A stretch of DNA of 64,000 bases, taken from the NCBI GenBank assembly GCA_937981555.1, contig CALJOK010000091.1:1-64000 (forward strand). The letters run 5' to 3'. Every line of letters starts with the position of its first letter. The stretch's first letter is position 1. Both the position numbers and the translations under genes were made by a program. Below, one piece after another: positions 44,892 through 53,870 of the stretch. The notes under the pieces are model-generated. The model had not been told where the DNA came from. It saw nothing but the letters and a program-made list of their open reading frames with translations, and did no database searches. The stretch comes from an uncultured Saprospiraceae bacterium (GTDB taxonomy: Bacteria > Bacteroidota > Bacteroidia > Chitinophagales > Saprospiraceae).

Positions 44892-46094
44892 TCAAATCTT
44901 CTTCACTCTTACTTTTGGTTTTAAATCCGTTCGACAGAACGCATGAAGAAAACAGGTTTGTTCTGACATCAACAAGGTCTCCCTTGCCACCTCGTCATCT
45001 TTACTCGAGTGTAAAAACACATGTGTCTCAACAGGGTCAGCTGAACCAGCTTTTCCTGTTTTACCAGATGCGCCACCTAGTGAAAAGTGAGTATCTTGAA
45101 TGATACTATATTTTTGTAAATCCGTTTTCATCATTGCAGAGTACCGTCCAAACTGGGTCATAAAACAAAAACCAATTCCTGCAGAAATATAAGAATTAGC
45201 ATCAGGGGCAAGACCTTGTCCGCCGTTTTCTTTTCCTTCATCTGAAAGGAATCTAAAAATAGAACCATGAGGATTGTAAAGGTGTTGTTCGATTACTTTG
45301 ACACCATCAGGTCGAAGGGTACAAACGCCTCGCAGGTGCAATTGGCGACTTTGTTTTTCTTTTAAACTAGAGCCTTGGCTACTTGTAATTTCATCTGTAA
45401 TCTCACTCATCCCTTTTCGTAAAATAAGCGGTTCATCCAATTCATTTTCAGCAGGTTGAGCATGGTCAAATCCTACACTTATTTCATCATATAAGTTACC
45501 CTTTATTTCTCCAACCCCTTTGGAAGAAATTTCTTTACCATTGTGTCCCAATTTAAAAAGGCTATGATGTTCTCCAGTCATCAATCCATTTAAAGGCGAA
45601 GCAATCGTAGCATCCAAGACCAACTTTTGTAAGGTGTTTGCATCGGCATCACTTTCGATTTCAGCTTCCAACAAAACGGGTAATGCCCCACCAATCATCG
45701 TTCCTTTTCTCATCGAACCTTGCATGGTGTAGTAATTATCTTGCGTAAGTTTAATGTTATGGATTTCAATATTTCGAATTTTAGCTAGTGCTAAAACTTC
45801 ATTCATATAGGAACTTATCATTCCAACGGTAAGGAAAGTTAAAGGAGCAGGGCATTCATCATGCCCATTTAAATAACTTCCTTCATCACTTGCTAACCGC
45901 CAAATTGTGTTGGTACTATTGGCACTCACTAAAGCTTCTTTTTGCATATGACTGAGTGACCTTACACAAGTTCTGATAGCATCTCCTTTTCGTAAAGGCA
46001 AAGTGCCTAAGTCCACATCATCAGGATTAGCAACTTTAAAAAAATAGGGGAGTCCACTTTCTTTTAAGGGATTGGGAAGATTTTTTTTAATCAT
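44892..46094 (-). CDS. Tandem OsmC-like protein of the aromatic island
   Basis: The 400-aa protein appears to be two OsmC-like halves in tandem. The first (about 35-190) has WRLASDEGSYLNGHDECPAPLTFLTVG and ends LDATIASPLNGLM, where a second Cys would be expected but is Ser. The second (about 250-395) has FRFLSDEGKENGGQGLAPD, SYISAGIGFCFMTQFGRYS and a Cys in MSEQTCFLHAFC. OsmC/Ohr proteins are Cys-based peroxidases, usually ~140-180 aa. Here the Cys pair is not intact in the first half. It has its own operator-promoter unit (operator 46162, -7 box 46111) and is divergent from the 4,5-cleavage operon, so it is co-regulated with aromatic catabolism. Function is unknown. Confidence 0.7.
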   Translation of the reverse strand: MIKKNLPNPLKESGLPYFFKVANPDDVDLGTLPLRKGDAIRTCVRSLSHMQKEALVSANSTNTIWRLASDEGSYLNGHDECPAPLTFLTVGMISSYMNEVLALAKIRNIEIHNIKLTQDNYYTMQGSMRKGTMIGGALPVLLEAEIESDADANTLQKLVLDATIASPLNGLMTGEHHSLFKLGHNGKEISSKGVGEIKGNLYDEISVGFDHAQPAENELDEPLILRKGMSEITDEITSSQGSSLKEKQSRQLHLRGVCTLRPDGVKVIEQHLYNPHGSIFRFLSDEGKENGGQGLAPDANSYISAGIGFCFMTQFGRYSAMMKTDLQKYSIIQDTHFSLGGASGKTGKAGSADPVETHVFLHSSKDDEVARETLLMSEQTCFLHAFCRTDLKPKVRVKKI

Positions 46095-46325: not shown

Positions 46326-47054
46326 ATGAAACTTTTAGTTGTTGGAGCACATGGTGCAGACTTCGTTTGGCGAGCAGGAGGAACTATTGCAAAAGTAGTT
46401 GAGGATGGTGGTACCGTCTTAAATCTTGCCTTATCTTATGGAGAAAGAGGAGAGTCAGGTGTACTGTGGAAGGAAGACCCAAACAGAACGGTCGATGAAG
46501 TAAAAAAACTAAGACATGAAATGGCACAAGCCGCATCTGATATTTTGGGATGTGAATTTCAATGTTATGATTGGGGAGACTATCCGATGATTCTAAATGA
46601 GGAACGCATTAATCAATTAGCTAATACAATTAGAACATTTGCTCCCGAAGTAATTCTAACGCATACGCCAATCGACCCTTTTAATCCTGACCATCCTTTA
46701 GCATATGAAGCAGTACAAAAGGCAAGATTATTATCTGCAGGTGCAGGTGTAGCAGCGGCATTTGAAAGAATTGACCCACCACGGTGGTTTTCTTTCGAGC
46801 CACATCAACCAGAACTTTCAGGTTTCGTACCTGATACTTATGTGGACATTACGAGTGTCTTTGAAAAAAAGGTAGCTGCGATGGGATGTATGAAAGCACA
46901 ATCTTATTTGAAAGATTATTATACGGAACTAGGGTCGAGGAGAGGAAATCATGCGAGAAGAATTTCTGGAATTCAATCTATTAAATTTGCAGAATGTCAT
47001 CAAAGTTGTGTTCCAGTAGTCGGTAATATAAATATTCTAAAACACCAGCGATGA
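46326..47054 (+). CDS. galB: 4-oxalomesaconate hydratase, GalB/PIG-L type
   Basis: The 242-aa protein is of the PIG-L deacetylase fold. The usual AHPDDE motif is replaced by GAHGADFVWRAGG, the variant of GalB hydratases, and NPDHPLAYEAVQKAR carries the further metal ligands. GalB of Pseudomonas putida hydrates 4-oxalomesaconate (enol form) to 4-carboxy-4-hydroxy-2-oxoadipate in gallate catabolism. The same step completes the protocatechuate 4,5-pathway. The product is the substrate of the aldolase encoded next, and the two genes overlap by 4 bp (ATGA), so they are translationally coupled. It is the first gene of the 4,5-cleavage operon. Confidence 0.85.
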   Translation: MKLLVVGAHGADFVWRAGGTIAKVVEDGGTVLNLALSYGERGESGVLWKEDPNRTVDEVKKLRHEMAQAASDILGCEFQCYDWGDYPMILNEERINQLANTIRTFAPEVILTHTPIDPFNPDHPLAYEAVQKARLLSAGAGVAAAFERIDPPRWFSFEPHQPELSGFVPDTYVDITSVFEKKVAAMGCMKAQSYLKDYYTELGSRRGNHARRISGIQSIKFAECHQSCVPVVGNINILKHQR

Positions 47055-47698
47055 AATCATTGGAAGAAAAAATAAAGGCACTTTCCAAATTTGGAACGGC
47101 AACTATTCATGAGGCCATCGGTAGGGAGGGTAATCTACCGATGCAAATCAAAGCATTGAATCAAAGCATGCGCTTATGTGGACCTGCCTATCCAGTAAAA
47201 TTAAAACCTTTTAATAATATTTTATTGCATCGTGCCTATGCTTATTCTCCGACTGGTTCTATCATCGTAGCAGATTGTCAAGGTGGTTATGAGGGTGGTT
47301 ATTGGGGAGACATGTTGACCTTAGGTTCTATGCAACAAGGCGTAAAAGGTTTAGTGATAGATGGCTGTGTTCGGGATGCTGAGGATATAGAAAAATTAGG
47401 ATTCCCAGTTTTTTGTCGAGGCTTATCCATTTTAGGTACAGGGAAAGATGGAGCAGGAACTTTGAATGAAACCATTACCATTGGAAAGGTAAAGATAGCC
47501 CCAGGAGATATTATTGTTGGAGATAGAGATGGGGTAGTGGTCGTTCCTGCTGACCGAATTGATGAGGCTATTGAAAAATCGATAGCTCGAGAAGAGAAAG
47601 AAGAAAATGTCAGAAGACAATTAAGAGAAGGAAAAAATTCTCTGGAAATATATGGTTGGGGAGAAAAATATGGATTTGAAACTAGAAGAAAAAATTAA
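47051..47698 (+). CDS. galC: 4-carboxy-4-hydroxy-2-oxoadipate aldolase, GalC/LigK type (RraA family)
   Basis: The 215-aa RraA-family class II aldolase has LSKFGTATIHEAIGREGNLP, RLCGPAYPVKLKP, WGDMLTLGSMQQGVKGLVIDGCVRD and GDIIVGDRDGVVVVPADR. Arg and Asp in VIDGCVRDAEDI are the typical substrate- and metal-binding residues. LigK/GalC enzymes cleave 4-carboxy-4-hydroxy-2-oxoadipate to pyruvate and oxaloacetate, the last step of the 4,5-pathway. The start codon overlaps the stop of galB. Some RraA proteins have other roles, but the operon context leaves little doubt here. Confidence 0.87.
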   Translation: MKSLEEKIKALSKFGTATIHEAIGREGNLPMQIKALNQSMRLCGPAYPVKLKPFNNILLHRAYAYSPTGSIIVADCQGGYEGGYWGDMLTLGSMQQGVKGLVIDGCVRDAEDIEKLGFPVFCRGLSILGTGKDGAGTLNETITIGKVKIAPGDIIVGDRDGVVVVPADRIDEAIEKSIAREEKEENVRRQLREGKNSLEIYGWGEKYGFETRRKN

Positions 47699-47703
47699 AT
47701 ATT

Positions 47704-48897
47704 TTGAAGAAACCAAAAATAGCAATATTAGGATTGGGTGAAGCTGGAAGTCATTTTGCAAATGACTTAGCTCGACTTGGTTATACGGTATCTGGATGGG
47801 ACCCTGATTTAAAAAGAACCCTTGACGAAAAAATTCACATTGCAAATAACAATGCTCATGCGGTGGAAGATGCGGATGTGGTTTTTAATGTAAATTTATC
47901 AAGCGTTGCAAAATCAGTAGCAGAAGAGATAAAGCATTGTGTAAAAAAAGAAGCTATATTTTGCGAAATGAATACTTCTTCTCCATTTGAAAAAAAAGAA
48001 ATTCAAAGCATTTTAAAAAATGAATGTACCGTGTTAGATGTCGCTATCATGGCACCTGTTCCGAAAGCAGGAATTCAAACTCCTTTTTTAGTATCTGGAG
48101 AAAATGCGATAGCTTTCCGCAACTACTTTTCTGAACTTCCAAATATTCAAATAATTGAAGCACCCGTAGGTAAAGCTGCTGAATTGAAATTATTAAGGTC
48201 GATTGTTTACAAAGGAGTTGCGGCGGTGATTTGTGAAGCGATGGAAGTAGCAGAGAAATTTGACTCAGTCCCATTTATGGAAGAGCAGATTAGCTCAATA
48301 ATGGGTGGTGATAAAAATTTAATAGAACGTTTTGTCGAAGGAAGTAAAAAGCATGCCATCCGAAGAAGTCATGAAATGGAAGCTGTTACCTCCATGCTTA
48401 AAAAAGAAAATCTAAGTGCGCTGATGTCAAAAGCAGCTCTTGATAATCTTTCCCGCTATGTGGAAACTAAGAAAGATGACCCCTCCACGATTTATGAAGA
48501 AAAGCAAAAACTGAAAAAAGCATTTTTGGATATTCCAGGGACGTATGTTTTTACCCCTGACCATAGTCGGAAAGGATATGAATTGAATATGTTTTGCATG
48601 TCTTTGAATGAAGCGGAAAATCGAGAAAAGTTTAGAGCAGATGAAAAAGCCTATGTCGATTTATTTCCAATGACGGAAGAACAAAAGCAAGCTGTATTAA
48701 ATAGAGAATGGCTGGAGATGCTGAGACTTGGAGGTAATATTTATTACACTTTTAAGATTGCCATTTTTGATAGAAAATCTATGCAACATGTTGGCGGTAA
48801 AATGTCAGGAATGACGGAAGAAGAATTCAAAGATATGATGTTGAGTGGGGGACGGTCAATAATAGGTAATAGAAGTAAAATTAAACAATCAAAATAA
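47704..48897 (+). CDS. ligA: Fusion: 6PGDH/DUF1932-like dehydrogenase + LigA (protocatechuate 4,5-dioxygenase alpha subunit)
   Basis: The 397-aa protein starts with TTG five bases after galC. Residues 1-270 form a 3-hydroxyisobutyrate/6-phosphogluconate-dehydrogenase-like unit: NAD(P) motif ILGLGEAGSHFAN (9-20), APVPKAG, APVGKAAELKLLRSIVYKG (catalytic-type Lys about 162) and a helical DUF1932-like region. Residues 274-389 match LigA, the small subunit of protocatechuate 4,5-dioxygenase: DIPGTYVFTPDHSRKGYELN, MSLNEAENREKF, ADEKAYVDLFPMT, EMLRLGGNIYY and GGKMSGMTEEEF. LigB, its partner, is the next gene (10-bp gap). No separate LigA exists in the window. The substrate of the dehydrogenase part is unknown. 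LigC is encoded separately downstream, so the fused domain is not simply a missing LigC. Confidence 0.88.
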   Translation: MKKPKIAILGLGEAGSHFANDLARLGYTVSGWDPDLKRTLDEKIHIANNNAHAVEDADVVFNVNLSSVAKSVAEEIKHCVKKEAIFCEMNTSSPFEKKEIQSILKNECTVLDVAIMAPVPKAGIQTPFLVSGENAIAFRNYFSELPNIQIIEAPVGKAAELKLLRSIVYKGVAAVICEAMEVAEKFDSVPFMEEQISSIMGGDKNLIERFVEGSKKHAIRRSHEMEAVTSMLKKENLSALMSKAALDNLSRYVETKKDDPSTIYEEKQKLKKAFLDIPGTYVFTPDHSRKGYELNMFCMSLNEAENREKFRADEKAYVDLFPMTEEQKQAVLNREWLEMLRLGGNIYYTFKIAIFDRKSMQHVGGKMSGMTEEEFKDMMLSGGRSIIGNRSKIKQSK

Positions 48898-48907
48898 TTT
48901 TTGAATT

Positions 48908-49753
48908 ATGGCTAAAATAGTCGGTGGTATAGGATGTAGTCATGTTCCTGCAGTTGGTGCAGCATCAGATCATGGTAAAACTAAAGATGGATATTGGACA
49001 CCCTTATTTAATGCTTTACCTGCTGCCAGAAAATGGTTAAGTGATTTAAAACCAGACGTGATGATATTGGTATACAACGATCATGGTTCTGCATTTTCGC
49101 TTGAACTCATTCCCACCTTTGCCATCGGTACTGCGGAGAATTTTAAGCCAGCCGACGAAGGATATGGGCCGCGGGATATTCCTGATGTGGAAGGACATGC
49201 AGAACTAGCTTGGCATATTGCAGAATCTTGTATTATGGATGAATTTGATTTAACCATTGCCAACAAAATGGATGTTGATCACGGCTGTACGGTACCCTTG
49301 ACGGTGTTTTTTGGAGAGGTAGAAAAATGGCCTGTCAGAGTCATTCCGATTTGTGTCAACGTAATTCAGTTTCCTCCACCGACTGCCAATAGATGTTTCA
49401 ATTTGGGGCGAGCCATCAAGAAAGCTATCAGTACATTTCCCGAAGATTTGAATGTGGTCGTTGCAGGGACAGGTGGCATGTCACACCAACTGCAAGGAGA
49501 ACGGTCAGGCGTGGTCAATACTGAATTTGACATCAACTACTTAAATCAATTGAGTGAGGATAATGATAAAAACCGCTACATGAATCATATCGACTATATT
49601 CGAGAAGCTGGTTCGGAAGGCATCGAAATGGTAATGTGGCAAATCATGCGCGGGGCAATGGAAGAAAAGATTGTAGAAAAATTTCGGAAGTATCATGTGG
49701 CCAGTAGCAATACCGCGTTTGGAATAATTTGTTTCGAAAACGAAGAAGCATGA
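48908..49753 (+). CDS. ligB: Protocatechuate 4,5-dioxygenase beta (catalytic) subunit, LigB
   Basis: The 281-aa LigB-superfamily extradiol dioxygenase has Fe(II) ligands at the expected places: His12 (GCSHVPAVG), His59 (VYNDHGSAF) and a Glu in GSEGIEMVMW (about E240). The catalytic His is His193 in GTGGMSHQLQGERSG. Positions agree well with SYK-6 LigB (H12, H61, E242, H195). It opens the protocatechuate ring between C4 and C5 to give 4-carboxy-2-hydroxymuconate-6-semialdehyde. Unlike one-piece gallate dioxygenases it carries no C-terminal LigA domain. The LigA domain is on the preceding gene. The stop overlaps the start of pobA by 4 bp. Confidence 0.92.
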   Translation: MAKIVGGIGCSHVPAVGAASDHGKTKDGYWTPLFNALPAARKWLSDLKPDVMILVYNDHGSAFSLELIPTFAIGTAENFKPADEGYGPRDIPDVEGHAELAWHIAESCIMDEFDLTIANKMDVDHGCTVPLTVFFGEVEKWPVRVIPICVNVIQFPPPTANRCFNLGRAIKKAISTFPEDLNVVVAGTGGMSHQLQGERSGVVNTEFDINYLNQLSEDNDKNRYMNHIDYIREAGSEGIEMVMWQIMRGAMEEKIVEKFRKYHVASSNTAFGIICFENEEA

Positions 49754-50940
49754 ATCTAAAAACACAAGTTGGAATTATTGGAGCAGGCCCTGCAGGATTA
49801 TTGTTATCTAGAATCTTGCACAATCATGGGATTGAAAATATCATTTTGGAAAACCGAAATGAATCCTACTTGAGACAACGGTTACGAGCTGGGGTGATGG
49901 AACAAGGAACGGTAGAAACGTTTATGGAAGCGGGAGTAGGCGAAAAATTAGCCAAAGGAAAAATGGTGCATGAAGGAATTTATATTCATGCTAAAGGAAT
50001 TCAAAATAGATTAGATGTCAAAGAATTAAGTGGTGGTAAAGAGGTGACTGTTTATGGGCAAAAAAACATCACGAATGATATGATTGACCATGCCCAAAAA
50101 GATGAAATTCAAATTGTCTGGGAAGCAAAGGCACAACGATTAGAACATATCGACGATGATGGGGAATCGGCAATCATTCATTATTCTTTGCATGGAAAAA
50201 TGTACACCCTCGAATGTGATTTTATTGCAGGCTGTGATGGCTTCCACGGAATCTCTCGTCCATCTCTTCCTATCACTCAAAAAAATATTTATAGTTATGA
50301 ATTTCCATATTCGTGGTATGGAATTTTGGCGGAAGCACCACCAATTGCGCATGAGGTTATTTATGCCCACCATCCAGATGGATTTGCTTTGCAAAGTATG
50401 CGAGGCCCAGAATTAAGCAGACTTTATATTCAATGTCCCAATGGAACAGACCCTGGTGCATACGAAGATGAATGGTTGTGGGATGAATTGGATAAAAGAT
50501 TGGGCGTGACCAATAACCGAGGAAATATTATCAGCAAAGGAGTCGCCCCGATGCGGTCATTTGTATGTGATGTGATGCAACATGGAAAACTATTTATAGC
50601 AGGTGATGCCGCACATATTGTTCCCCCAACGGGAGCTAAGGGAATGAACCTCGCCGTTGCCGATGTGAAGGTGTTGTCCAAAGGATTGATTCATCATTAT
50701 AAGGATAAGGACGATGATATTTTGAATAGATATACTGAAATCTGTCTTAGGCGAATTTGGAAAGTAGAGCGATTTTCTTGGTGGGTCACCACGACATTTC
50801 ATGTAGATGAAAATCAAGATGAATTTACCACCAAGATGCAAGAAGCCACTATTTCTTATATGTTAGATTCTCAAATTGGTGGTCAATCTTTCGCAGAAAA
50901 TTATGTGGGATTACCCATTCTTTGGAATGAAAAAAAATAA
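49750..50940 (+). CDS. pobA: 4-hydroxybenzoate 3-monooxygenase (PobA)
   Basis: FAD-dependent aromatic hydroxylase of ~396 aa. The ATG at 49750 is chosen because it overlaps the ligB stop (ATGA) and places the FAD motif GIIGAGPAGLLLSRIL at the N-terminus. The longer frame adds seven residues. RLRAGVMEQGTVE, DFIAGCDGFHGISRPSLP and LFIAGDAAHIVPPTGAKGMN are the characteristic FAD/NAD(P)H and substrate-site motifs of p-hydroxybenzoate hydroxylase. It converts 4-hydroxybenzoate to protocatechuate, the LigAB substrate, and so links the upstream part of the island to ring cleavage. Confidence 0.93.
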   Translation: MNLKTQVGIIGAGPAGLLLSRILHNHGIENIILENRNESYLRQRLRAGVMEQGTVETFMEAGVGEKLAKGKMVHEGIYIHAKGIQNRLDVKELSGGKEVTVYGQKNITNDMIDHAQKDEIQIVWEAKAQRLEHIDDDGESAIIHYSLHGKMYTLECDFIAGCDGFHGISRPSLPITQKNIYSYEFPYSWYGILAEAPPIAHEVIYAHHPDGFALQSMRGPELSRLYIQCPNGTDPGAYEDEWLWDELDKRLGVTNNRGNIISKGVAPMRSFVCDVMQHGKLFIAGDAAHIVPPTGAKGMNLAVADVKVLSKGLIHHYKDKDDDILNRYTEICLRRIWKVERFSWWVTTTFHVDENQDEFTTKMQEATISYMLDSQIGGQSFAENYVGLPILWNEKK

Positions 50941-50945
50941 TTAAA

Positions 50946-51884
50946 ATGAAATTGATTTTAGCTGGTTCAGGTTCTATTGCAAGAAAGCATATCAAAGCCA
51001 TTCAGAATATTGATGGGGTTGAACTCACGCTGTTAGGTGTAGATGAAGCTGAAGTTGCAGCAGTTGCAAAGGAGCATAATCTTACTTCCTATTCAACAGA
51101 TTTATCTTTATTGACCGCTTCGGATGCAGATGCAGTTATCTTGGCTACACCAACTCCGCTTCATGCACAACAGACAATCGACTGTTTGAATGCTGGTAAA
51201 CATGTACTCGTAGAAATTCCAATGGGGATGAATCTGGAAGAGTGTAGAGCCATTACATCTGCTCAAGAAGCAACGGGTAAAATTGCGATGGTCGCACATA
51301 CCAGAAGATTTAATCCACCACATCAATGGCTTCGTGAACAATTTAAAAAAGGCAAATTGCATTTGCATCACTTGGTGGTGGAAACCTTTTTTCATCGTCG
51401 TGAAAATGTAAATGCTTTAGGAAAAAAACGAGATTGGGTAGATCATCTTTTGTGGCATCATGCCTGCCATAGTGTTGACCTTTTTGGTTGGCAAGCTGAT
51501 GAAGCAATTATCAAACGATGGGCGCAGCAAGGACCAGTTAGTTCGACTTTAGGAATCCCCTTGGACATGACGATTGGTTTAAAAAGTACAAGTGGAAAAC
51601 TCTGTACCATCGCATTGTCCTTCAACAATGAAGGGCCTTTAGGTACTTGGTTTAGATATATTTGTGAAGAAGGAACTTTTAAAGTACGGTACAACGACAT
51701 GACAGATGGTTGGGATAAGGATTTTAATTACGATTGGGAGGAGGAAACCGACAATGGAATTGAATTACAAGATAGAGAATTTATTAATGCCATAAAAGAA
51801 AATCGACAACCTCGGTCGAGTGTACACGATTGCTACGACTCCATGGAAATTTTACATAAACTGGAATACCTTTCCAATAACTAA
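50946..51884 (+). CDS. ligC: 4-carboxy-2-hydroxymuconate-6-semialdehyde dehydrogenase (LigC)
   Basis: The 312-aa Gfo/Idh/MocA-family oxidoreductase has the Rossmann motif LAGSGSIARKHIKAIQNIDG, ATPTPLHAQQTIDCLNAGKH, EIPMG, VAHTRRFNPPHQW, a strongly conserved DHLLWHHACHSVDLFGWQ, LSFNNEGPLGTWFRYIC and NGIELQDREFI. These closely resemble Sphingobium LigC. The reaction oxidises the ring-cleavage product (hemiacetal form) to 2-pyrone-4,6-dicarboxylate using NAD(P). It lies 5 bp after pobA and 8 bp before the tautomerase gene. Confidence is high, because the DHLLWHHA block is specific to this group. Confidence 0.92.
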   Translation: MKLILAGSGSIARKHIKAIQNIDGVELTLLGVDEAEVAAVAKEHNLTSYSTDLSLLTASDADAVILATPTPLHAQQTIDCLNAGKHVLVEIPMGMNLEECRAITSAQEATGKIAMVAHTRRFNPPHQWLREQFKKGKLHLHHLVVETFFHRRENVNALGKKRDWVDHLLWHHACHSVDLFGWQADEAIIKRWAQQGPVSSTLGIPLDMTIGLKSTSGKLCTIALSFNNEGPLGTWFRYICEEGTFKVRYNDMTDGWDKDFNYDWEEETDNGIELQDREFINAIKENRQPRSSVHDCYDSMEILHKLEYLSNN

Positions 51885-51892
51885 AATTAAAC

Positions 51893-52975
51893 ATGTCCAC
51901 ATCTATTCCTATTTCCATTATCAGAGGAGGTTCATCCAAAGGCGTTTTTTTCAAAAAAAGTGATTTACCTGAGGATGAATCAAAACGTCAGAAAATACTT
52001 TTGGAGGTCATGGAAGGAAAAGGTCATGGCGACCTTAGACAAGTAGATGGTCTAGGTGGAGCAAATTCATTGACTGCAAAAATTGCTGTCGTGAGTAAAT
52101 CAAATGATTCGAATGCAGATTTAGATTATCATTTTTATCAAGTCGTTATTGGAAAAGGGGAATTGTCAGATAGTCAAAATTGTGGGAATATATTGGCAGG
52201 AGTTCTTCCATTTGCTTTGCAAGAAAATTTATGTTCCGCTGACCATCCTCAAACCACTAAGGTGATAAAAATGTTAAATAGTAATTCGCTTTGCGAGGTG
52301 ACTATCGAAACACCCAACGAAGTTTATAATCCAAACGGTTCAACTAAAGTTCATGGAGTGTTAGGTACGGGTTCCAAAATTCTATGCAATTATTTGGATA
52401 TAGCAGGAAAGAATACGGGAAGTCTGACTCCAACGGGGAAAGTGAAAGATGAAGTCAACGGAATAGAAATTACCTGTGTGGATAACGGGATGCCTGTCGT
52501 TTTGCTTAGGGCAAAAGATGTTGGAATTACGGGGTATGAAACTAAAGAAGAACTAGACCAGAATACTGAGTTGAAAAAACAATTAGAAGACATTAGATTG
52601 CAAGCAGGAGAGATGATGAATTTAGGAGATGTCAGCAAAAAAACGGTACCTAAAATGACGTTGATTGCTCCACCAAAGATGGGAGGAATGATTAATACTC
52701 GAACTTTTATTCCACATGTTTGCCACGCTTCCATTGGTGTGCTCGGAGCAGTTTCAGCAGTAACAGGTTGTTTGTTACCAGGTTCGGTCGCAGAAGATAT
52801 CATTGGACGACAAGCCTTAGAAAATGGTTCACATCAATTTATGGCAGAGCATCCATCGGGGACATTGGAAGTCACTTTGAATGTACAAACCGAAAAAGAG
52901 CAACTTAATTTCCCGAAATCTGGAGTGGTAAGAACCGCAAGAGTATTGTTAAGAGGAGATGCCTTTTTACCTTAA
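51893..52975 (+). CDS. galD: 4-oxalomesaconate tautomerase/isomerase (GalD/LigU type, PrpF family)
   Basis: The 360-aa PrpF-fold isomerase has IIRGGSSKGVFFKKSDLP at the N-terminus, GLGGANSLTAKIAVV, the Cys-containing LSDSQNCGNILAGVLPFAL, CVDNGMPVVLLRAKDVG and C-terminal EHPSGTLEVTLNV. PrpF-type enzymes in this pathway (GalD in Pseudomonas, LigU in Sphingobium) convert 4-oxalomesaconate to the isomer used by the hydratase. It lies between ligC and ligI, so pathway placement is clear. Whether it performs keto-enol tautomerisation or 1,3-allylic isomerisation cannot be decided from sequence. Confidence 0.88.
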   Translation: MSTSIPISIIRGGSSKGVFFKKSDLPEDESKRQKILLEVMEGKGHGDLRQVDGLGGANSLTAKIAVVSKSNDSNADLDYHFYQVVIGKGELSDSQNCGNILAGVLPFALQENLCSADHPQTTKVIKMLNSNSLCEVTIETPNEVYNPNGSTKVHGVLGTGSKILCNYLDIAGKNTGSLTPTGKVKDEVNGIEITCVDNGMPVVLLRAKDVGITGYETKEELDQNTELKKQLEDIRLQAGEMMNLGDVSKKTVPKMTLIAPPKMGGMINTRTFIPHVCHASIGVLGAVSAVTGCLLPGSVAEDIIGRQALENGSHQFMAEHPSGTLEVTLNVQTEKEQLNFPKSGVVRTARVLLRGDAFLP

Positions 52976-52984
52976 AAAATAAAT

Positions 52985-53870
52985 ATGCAAAGAAAAATAA
53001 AGACCTGCATGCCGCCAGACCATAACCCGGTCAAACCAAAATTCCAATTACCTAAAAATGCTTGTGATGCACATTGTCATGTTTTCGGACCTGCCAATGT
53101 TTTTCCATATCACCCTACAGCAAGTTACAACCCACCTGATGCTGGCAAAGAAAAATTAAAAGCCTTGCACGATTATATCGGAATTGACCGAGCGGTGATT
53201 GTACAAGCGAGTTGTCATGGACCTGATAATAGAGCGATGCTAGATGCGATTGCATGGTCGGGTGGAAGATGGAAAGGAGTCTGTATTGCTAACAATTCAT
53301 TTACGGAAGAAGATTTTGAAGCATTAGATAAAGGTGGCGTAAAAGGAGTTCGATTTAATTTCGTTAAGCATTTAGGTGGAGCACCCGATCTTACTGAAAT
53401 GAAAAGTGTATTAGATAAAGTCAAACCACTTGGTTGGCATTTAGTCATTCATGTTAATGCGGAAGACCTCATAGAATATGAGAATTTTTTTTTTTGATAC
53501 CCTAGGGGATATGATTATCGTCGTTGACCACATGGGAAGAGTACCTACCGATAAAGGAGTTGAACAAAAGGCTTTCGAAATTTTATTGAAGTTTTTAGAA
53601 AATGAAAATTGGTGGGTCAAAGTTTCAGGTGCTGAGAGAATATCTGTAGCGGGACCTCCATTTTATGATGCGATACCCTATGCTCAAGCCTTAATCAAGG
53701 CTGCACCTGATCGAGTGATTTGGGGAACTGATTTTCCACATCCAAATATCAAAGAGCATATGCCTAATGATGGTGCGCTTGTAGATTTATTGAGACTTTT
53801 TTCTTATGATGAAAATATCATGCATAAAATTCTAGTTCAAAATCCTGCTAGATTATATGGCTGGGATTGA
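52985..53870 (+). CDS. ligI: 2-pyrone-4,6-dicarboxylate hydrolase (LigI), reading frame broken at a T11 tract
   Basis: The amidohydrolase-family lactonase is split in two frames. The first part (52985-53497, 170 aa) has NACDAHCHVFGPANVFPYHP (H30, H32), VIVQASCHGPDN, KGVRFNFVKHLGG and LVIHVNAEDL. The second part continues in the +1 frame from about 53490 with MIIVVDHMGR, WVKVSGAERIS and VIWGTDFPHPN (metal Asp) to the stop at 53870. The break is an 11-T run at 53485-53495. With ten T the frame is continuous and gives ~294 aa, close to LigI (~293). The enzyme opens 2-pyrone-4,6-dicarboxylate to 4-oxalomesaconate. The break may be a sequencing error, a slippage site corrected by RNA polymerase, or a true mutation. 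Confidence 0.88.

Follow-up and report, generated by a model that had tools for sequence, protein, structure and literature searches.

Among the described systems closest to the locus reported here, PcaA of Pseudarthrobacter is known, from the accessible part of one report, as a one-piece LigA–LigB enzyme (PMC8431788). For the two-subunit LigAB, the accessible text of another report holds that Phe103 of the alpha subunit is said to set C5 selectivity, that the F103V/T/L/H variants are active, and that LigA with an N-terminal tag still assembles with LigB (PMC10094722). The ligJABC operon of Novosphingobium aromaticivorans includes SARO_RS14280, to which the accessible portion of its description assigns "no known role"; the same portion gives ligR as flanked by both predicted transcription units in 82 of 152 genomes (PMC12710314). 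In the accessible part of a table for SYK-6, one gene number is left free between ligR and ligJ (PMC12997858). The open-access literature yielded no published description of a fusion between LigA and a dehydrogenase, which agrees with an earlier reading of the DNA made from its letters (hereafter the sequence-only reading) that had known of none, and for DUF1932 only unrelated work was found there. The architecture described below is new as far as the open-access literature was searched, and it is rare, occurring in two genera.

The window, that is, the whole stretch of 64,000 nucleotides that was analysed, contains a cluster of aromatic-degradation genes on the forward strand, in which a gene of 397 codons with a TTG start and zero internal stops joins a DUF1932-type oxidoreductase to LigA (Table 1). 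The C-terminal half matches the LigA model of Pfam (PF07746; residues 294–379, profile positions 1–86 of 87) with 124.1 bits against a cut-off of 25.3, and the PCA_ligA model of NCBIfam (TIGR02792; residues 274–390, profile positions 1–117 of 117) with 150.4 bits against 108.6. The LigA chain of the PDB entry 1b4u (1b4u_A) aligns with residues 273–391, nearly the whole half, with an E-value of 8.7e-34. The best-scoring LigA model, NF009917, narrowly misses its subfamily cut-off (165.7 vs 173 bits). A chance or weak LigA match is ruled out by the Pfam and NCBIfam scores together with the 1b4u alignment. The N-terminal half carries NAD_binding_2 (PF03446, 44 vs 21 bits) followed by DUF1932 (PF09130, 31.5 vs 25 bits), both above the gathering score, which places it among the DUF1932 oxidoreductases, and residues 5–255, again nearly the whole half, align with an NAD-binding phosphogluconate dehydrogenase-like protein (PDB 3qsg, E 5.9e-18). 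Its motifs read GLGEAG, DVAIMAPVP, KLLRSIVYKG, and HAIRRSHEM. Neither of the LigC-type models, for the GFO/IDH/MocA fold and for the PF19858 C-terminal domain, is matched by the fusion. The sequence-only reading had assigned residues 1–270 to an NAD(P)-binding DUF1932-type unit with GLGEAG and residues 274–389 to LigA, and would have given up the latter if LigA profiles failed to match there; the profiles support both assignments.

Table 1. Features of the fused gene and of the surrounding cluster, in window positions.
Feature	Coordinates	Strand	Evidence
Fused gene, DUF1932-type NAD(P)-binding oxidoreductase + LigA subunit	47704..48897	+	Domain and structure matches, G229 counterpart
Oxidoreductase half, ~residues 1–255	47704..48468	+	NAD_binding_2 5–134, DUF1932 204–247
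Variable linker, ~residues 256–272	48469..48519	+	Low identity to G229
LigA half, residues 273–391	48520..48876	+	Pfam, NCBIfam, PDB matches
galB, PIG-L-type 4-oxalomesaconate hydratase	46326..47054	+	5cgz, E 1.4e-57
ligK-like CHA aldolase (RraA family)	47051..47698	+	Directly upstream of the fusion
ligB, catalytic subunit	48908..49753	+	Domain models, alignment to 1b4u_B
pobA, 4-hydroxybenzoate 3-monooxygenase	49729..50940	+	Subfamily model 512.4 bits, cut-off 351
ligC/pmdC-like CHMS dehydrogenase	50946..51884	+	GFO/IDH/MocA + PF19858; closest solved structure PmdC 9azo, E 2.3e-98
galD, 4-oxalomesaconate tautomerase	51893..52975	+	NF033377 446.9 bits, cut-off 440
ligI-like PDC hydrolase, two frames	52985..53870	+	Name from family and position

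Met360 of the fusion (48781–48783) stands where SYK-6 LigA has Phe103. The same Met occurs in three relatives of the family and in the seven LigA sequences (loci L005–L011) obtained by an exact short-peptide scan of genome contigs, so Met360 is a LigA variant and not a hallmark of the fusion. The scan gave eight loci in all, and a miss in it does not indicate absence; the eighth locus (L012) was dropped as an unrelated nucleotide-sugar dehydrogenase. An AlphaFold model of the fusion, for which the input alignment consisted of LigA relatives only (five of the seven, with L005, which contains an X, and L008 omitted), was poor, with a mean pLDDT of 51.2, and says nothing on geometry.

The neighboring genes agree with what the sequence-only reading had listed, namely ligB 10 bp past the stop of the fusion and a separate LigC-like gene, which is nearest to PmdC. 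In the alignment to 1b4u_B, LigB retains the SH, NDH, GIE, and GMSH positions, which we take to be the iron ligands and the catalytic His, with metal and acid–base roles. The ligK-like gene scores below the curated CHA aldolase cut-offs (171.1 vs 179 and 168.4 vs 304.5 bits), and galB is 56% identical to its Thermus oshimai homologue, which lies in an equal gene order. The ligI-like gene is read in two frames (52985–53497 and 53478–53870) that join at a T run, each matching its own part of Amidohydro_2, and the joined query matches the genome of a relative (G113) in one stretch. The split comes either from a slip in the assembly or from a gene that is broken; in the latter case, this strain may have a blocked PDC branch. 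Adjoining the cluster on the opposite strand (44892–46094) is a gene for a 400-aa protein in which Pfam matches OsmC only at residues 292–387, and the OsmC-related (seleno)protein model of NCBIfam reports two stretches.

The genome that contains the window (G000) is 96.95% complete, and its single LigA is the fused one, as expected from the claim that no free-standing LigA exists here. Since no other LigA was found in the genome, the dioxygenase assembled in this cell has to include the N-terminal unit, barring an internal start. A fusion of equal length, likewise with a TTG start and an intact frame, is present in a genome of a different genus (G229). It is matched by all three domains (PF03446 with 41 bits, PF09130 with 40.2 bits), is 61% identical to the window protein overall, and lies in the order ligK-like end, small ORF, fusion, ligB, pobA start. 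A stop or frameshift between the halves, the other finding that would have counted against the sequence-only reading, is absent from this second 397-aa frame as well. As judged from the two genes, the fusion of LigA and the oxidoreductase in one frame is real and confirmed, and the copy in G229 rules out an assembly artefact.

A count of the architecture across genomes, as the sequence-only reading had proposed, found LigA in 4 of 398 genomes of the family, that of the window included, and the fusion in two of these four; an earlier draw of 298 family genomes gave the identical four. Besides these two family draws, the surveys took in 396 genomes from the order and 395 each from the class and the phylum, the draws overlapping. 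LigA above the cut-off was found in them only in G000, G113, G156, and G229, with a partial match in G724 (G388, with 22.3 bits for LigA, was under the cut-off and left out). It was fused only in G000 and G229, and no further fusion appeared in the draws from the order (396), class (395), or phylum (395). In G113 and G156, LigA is a free chain of 136–141 aa, and an oxidoreductase homologue was not found in either genome despite matches to ligA, ligB, ligC-like, and galD genes. Since G156 is fragmented (90% complete, ∼630 contigs; for comparison, G229 is 85% complete with ∼640 contigs), the absence there is weaker than in G113, which is 97% complete. These relatives appear to manage without the oxidoreductase, and G113 suggests that it is dispensable for the pathway. 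Within the family, the oxidoreductase does not correlate with galD, because all four LigA genomes carry a galD match, two of these matches being partial and under the cut-off.

Between the window and G229, the oxidoreductase parts (residues 1–250) are 55% identical, with differences at the three codon positions of 0.38/0.22/0.57, and the LigA parts (residues 269–392) are 81.5% identical, with differences of 0.21/0.11/0.48. The linker in this comparison (residues 251–268, 18 codons) is 17% identical. The codon-position pattern suggests that purifying selection acts on both halves and that the linker between them is loose. In a visual comparison, the window linker, TIYEEKQKLKKAF, reaches the start site of the free LigA in G156, MTKEEKAELRKAF, which is consistent with two neighboring genes having merged where ligA begins.

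Stand-alone homologues of the oxidoreductase half were sought by tblastn with residues 1–256 against 72,556 plasmid records, of which 108 matched, and 60 places were listed. At least 37 of the 60 have a listed LigB, GalD, or LigK match at a distance of 10 kb or less, and three further places (Thermus, Arthrobacter StoSoilB13, and Rhizobium Pop5) have a LigK-like neighbor. At least 40 of the 60 listed places, including all of the 13 best-ranked, are thus near ligB, galD, or ligK, although they are not independent, near-duplicate records (Azospirillum, Sphingobium) being among them. For 20 of the 60, no ligB, galD, or ligK neighbor was seen among the matches listed, so the wider DUF1932 family has other roles too. 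In genomes with the free LigA loci of the peptide scan, DUF1932 proteins were present in five of seven, one of the genes lying beside galD (L034) and another sharing a contig with ligA at a distance of ∼17 kb. By gene order, the DUF1932 oxidoreductase is a recurrent separate gene of protocatechuate-4,5 and gallate clusters and not a stray. The fusion therefore unites two genes that are already neighbors elsewhere.

The labels LigJ and LigC in the following plasmid gene orders are our assignments by position. In Sphingopyxis FD7, the order is LysR, DUF1932, amidohydrolase (LigJ), ligA, ligB, and Gfo/Idh/MocA (LigC), and Sphingobium xenophagum has the same order with two extra small genes. In Novosphingobium KA1, it is DUF1932, amidohydrolase, ligA, ligB, hydrolase, and Gfo/Idh/MocA. 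On plasmid pCAR3 of this strain (L018), a second ligAB pair lies between LysR and DUF1932; the two pairs, one on each side of the DUF1932 gene, are of different type and run in opposite directions. A LigC-like gene is present in each of the four fetched sphingomonad plasmid clusters with DUF1932 and ligAB (L018, L020, L023, and L027). Pantoea and Klebsiella have the order galB, ligK, galD, and DUF1932. In two records, the stand-alone homologue is near an annotated gallate dioxygenase gene, with no LigC-like gene in the 5–6 kb on each side. The order PIG-L, ligK, DUF1932 in Thermus oshimai matches galB, ligK, fusion in the window. On this Thermus plasmid (L019), a pobA-like gene and a gene annotated as catechol 2,3-dioxygenase are neighbors of the galB-like, ligK-like, and DUF1932 genes. 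The 14.7 kb examined there gave no match to LigA or LigB; a different ring-cleaving enzyme is possibly feeding the same lower pathway. In Rhizobium (L030), the DUF1932 gene adjoins an RraA-family gene and transporter genes, and in Methylobacterium (L029; a frame-to-stop reading gives 616 aa, the annotated gene being 906 bp) an Ldh-family oxidoreductase and a LigI-like amidohydrolase. No ring-cleaving dioxygenase is annotated in either stretch, and these neighbors may hint at the natural substrate class.

In an alignment of 20 sequences, the two fusions and 18 stand-alone homologues from outside the family, the motifs GxGE[AV], DxAx[ML]xxV, K[LM]xRS, RSxxxKG, and HxxRRxxEM are present in 20 of 20, and GxGExG in 18, with both fusions among them. 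Both fusions thus contain GLGEAG and KLLRS, as looked for in the beta-hydroxyacid dehydrogenase superfamily, in which the conserved Lys of K[LM]xRS presumably has a role. By analogy with the similar gene order of the sphingomonad plasmids, SARO_RS14280 is probably the DUF1932 gene of its operon, as far as the accessible part of its description goes (PMC12710314), and the gene number left free in the accessible SYK-6 table fits such an arrangement there (PMC12997858).

Taken together, we consider the chances slightly better than even that the fusion is one polypeptide with two working units, a LigA for LigB and a tethered oxidoreductase that would act on an acid of the lower pathway and not on CHMS. 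By homology, the C-terminal unit is a LigA whose partner would be the LigB encoded 10 bp downstream, the two making up a protocatechuate 4,5-dioxygenase. Homology and motif conservation identify the N-terminal unit as an intact NAD(P)-binding oxidoreductase of the DUF1932 type, within the beta-hydroxyacid-dehydrogenase superfamily. Operon neighbors in the order ligK, DUF1932, ligA, and ligB would have merged at the ligA start, so that the oxidoreductase became tethered to the ring-cleaving enzyme. Such a tether would give fixed stoichiometry and nearness, and a channel is not implied. A tethered oxidoreductase is sterically reasonable, since N-terminally tagged LigA assembles with LigB in the accessible account (PMC10094722). 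The predicted substrate is a keto or hydroxy acid at the level of 4-oxalomesaconate, KCH, or CHA, or a wrongly reduced form; the oxalomesaconate/CHA level is favored because DUF1932 genes adjoin galD, galB/ligJ, and ligK. As we know of no redox step in the stretch from oxalomesaconate to CHA, the oxidoreductase would either repair wrongly reduced acids or belong to a side branch not yet recognised.

How the long frame is read in the cell bears on this proposal. Start-like codons by the junction (ATG 241, GTG 253, and TTG 275 in the window; ATG 263 in G229) could yield some free LigA, and on that basis the two halves might be fused on paper only, with an internal start supplying LigA and the long protein a side product. 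We regard this as very unlikely, because within residues 236–295 no start-like codon is common to the window and G229, and both genomes have an unbroken long frame of identical length. The frame break at the T run of ligI indicates that a small indel may exist in this assembly, but that an error deleted the stop between two separate genes is hardly conceivable, since a second genome carries the fusion in a protein that is 61% identical overall. A mainly scaffolding role, in which dimers of the half keep the dioxygenase assembled, or the half sets LigA expression, and catalysis is unneeded, would suit the rarity of the fusion, the two relatives that lack the oxidoreductase, and the modest DUF1932 match of 31.5 bits; it is nevertheless distinctly unlikely in view of the cofactor motif and other conserved motifs kept in both fusions and of the codon pattern of purifying selection in the oxidoreductase half.

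A stronger competitor, though in our estimate still an unlikely one, is that CHMS is the direct substrate of the oxidoreductase half, which would then be an additional CHMS dehydrogenase or reductase and would channel or detoxify the semialdehyde. The half is joined to a subunit of the CHMS-making enzyme, and the CHMS/PDC branch (LigC-like, LigI-like) is in the cluster, but that branch brings its own LigC-like gene, as do the sphingomonad clusters L018, L020, L023, and L027. In favor of this explanation, no LigC-like gene was found in the 14.7 kb around the Thermus oshimai DUF1932 gene. The two records with gallate dioxygenase genes, in which the fetched stretches have no LigC-like gene, count against it, gallate cleavage not being known to yield CHMS. 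Two relatives, moreover, have LigAB and LigC-like genes without the oxidoreductase. CHMS is not favored as the substrate because LigC-like genes accompany DUF1932 and DUF1932 genes occur near gallate dioxygenase genes. DUF1932 as a replacement for LigC is disfavored for the first of these reasons and because the window copy of LigC is nearest to PmdC. The channelling of semialdehyde put forward in the sequence-only reading would duplicate LigC and is not favored either; that reading stands in its domains, neighbors, and lack of a free LigA, and is weaker in the mechanisms it suggested.

For the preferred reading, that of a working LigA with a tethered lower-pathway oxidoreductase, the wider meaning lies in the stand-alone genes. 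On genomic grounds, the fusion is a Rosetta stone that links LigAB to an orphan oxidoreductase of the pathway, because the stand-alone homologue recurs near pathway genes and SARO_RS14280 has "no known role" in the accessible part of its description (PMC12710314). Going further, the orphan DUF1932 oxidoreductase of 4,5-cleavage operons may be a physical partner of LigAB in a ring-cleavage/redox complex, receiving or guarding a LigAB-derived intermediate, with the two as separate proteins in most bacteria; this extension is tentative and, on balance, doubtful. The ligJABC operon gene without a known role belongs to a model degrader of lignin aromatics and is probably a relative of the fusion half (PMC12710314, accessible part). 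That such a probable relative is naturally joined to LigA suggests a function of the gene product alongside the ring-cleaving enzyme, and perhaps upon it. The fusion offers a single protein in which cofactor, substrate, and complex can be probed, and hence a handle on the role of the orphan neighbor. Because PDC is produced from lignin through this pathway, yields could be affected by a redox or repair step that has been overlooked.

In comparison with known systems, the LigA half corresponds over nearly the whole chain to the LigAB alpha subunit (1b4u), with ligB as the next gene, but the free LigA of the relatives G113 and G156 has 136–141 aa, whereas the fusion has an oxidoreductase joined at the N-terminus. 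Gallate dioxygenase (3wku) and PcaA of Pseudarthrobacter likewise contain a LigA-like unit within a longer chain. In these one-piece class III dioxygenases, however, LigA is joined to LigB, while in the window LigB is separate and the partner of LigA is an oxidoreductase. The DUF1932/NAD_binding_2 oxidoreductases (3qsg and 4ezb) share the domain order, motifs, and pathway neighbors of the fusion half, but the stand-alone homologues are 24–36% identical to it and are encoded by a separate gene in the 18 that were aligned. LigC/PmdC (9azo) is also NAD(P)-dependent and acts in the same pathway, but it belongs to another family (GFO/IDH/MocA) and is encoded in the window by a gene of its own.
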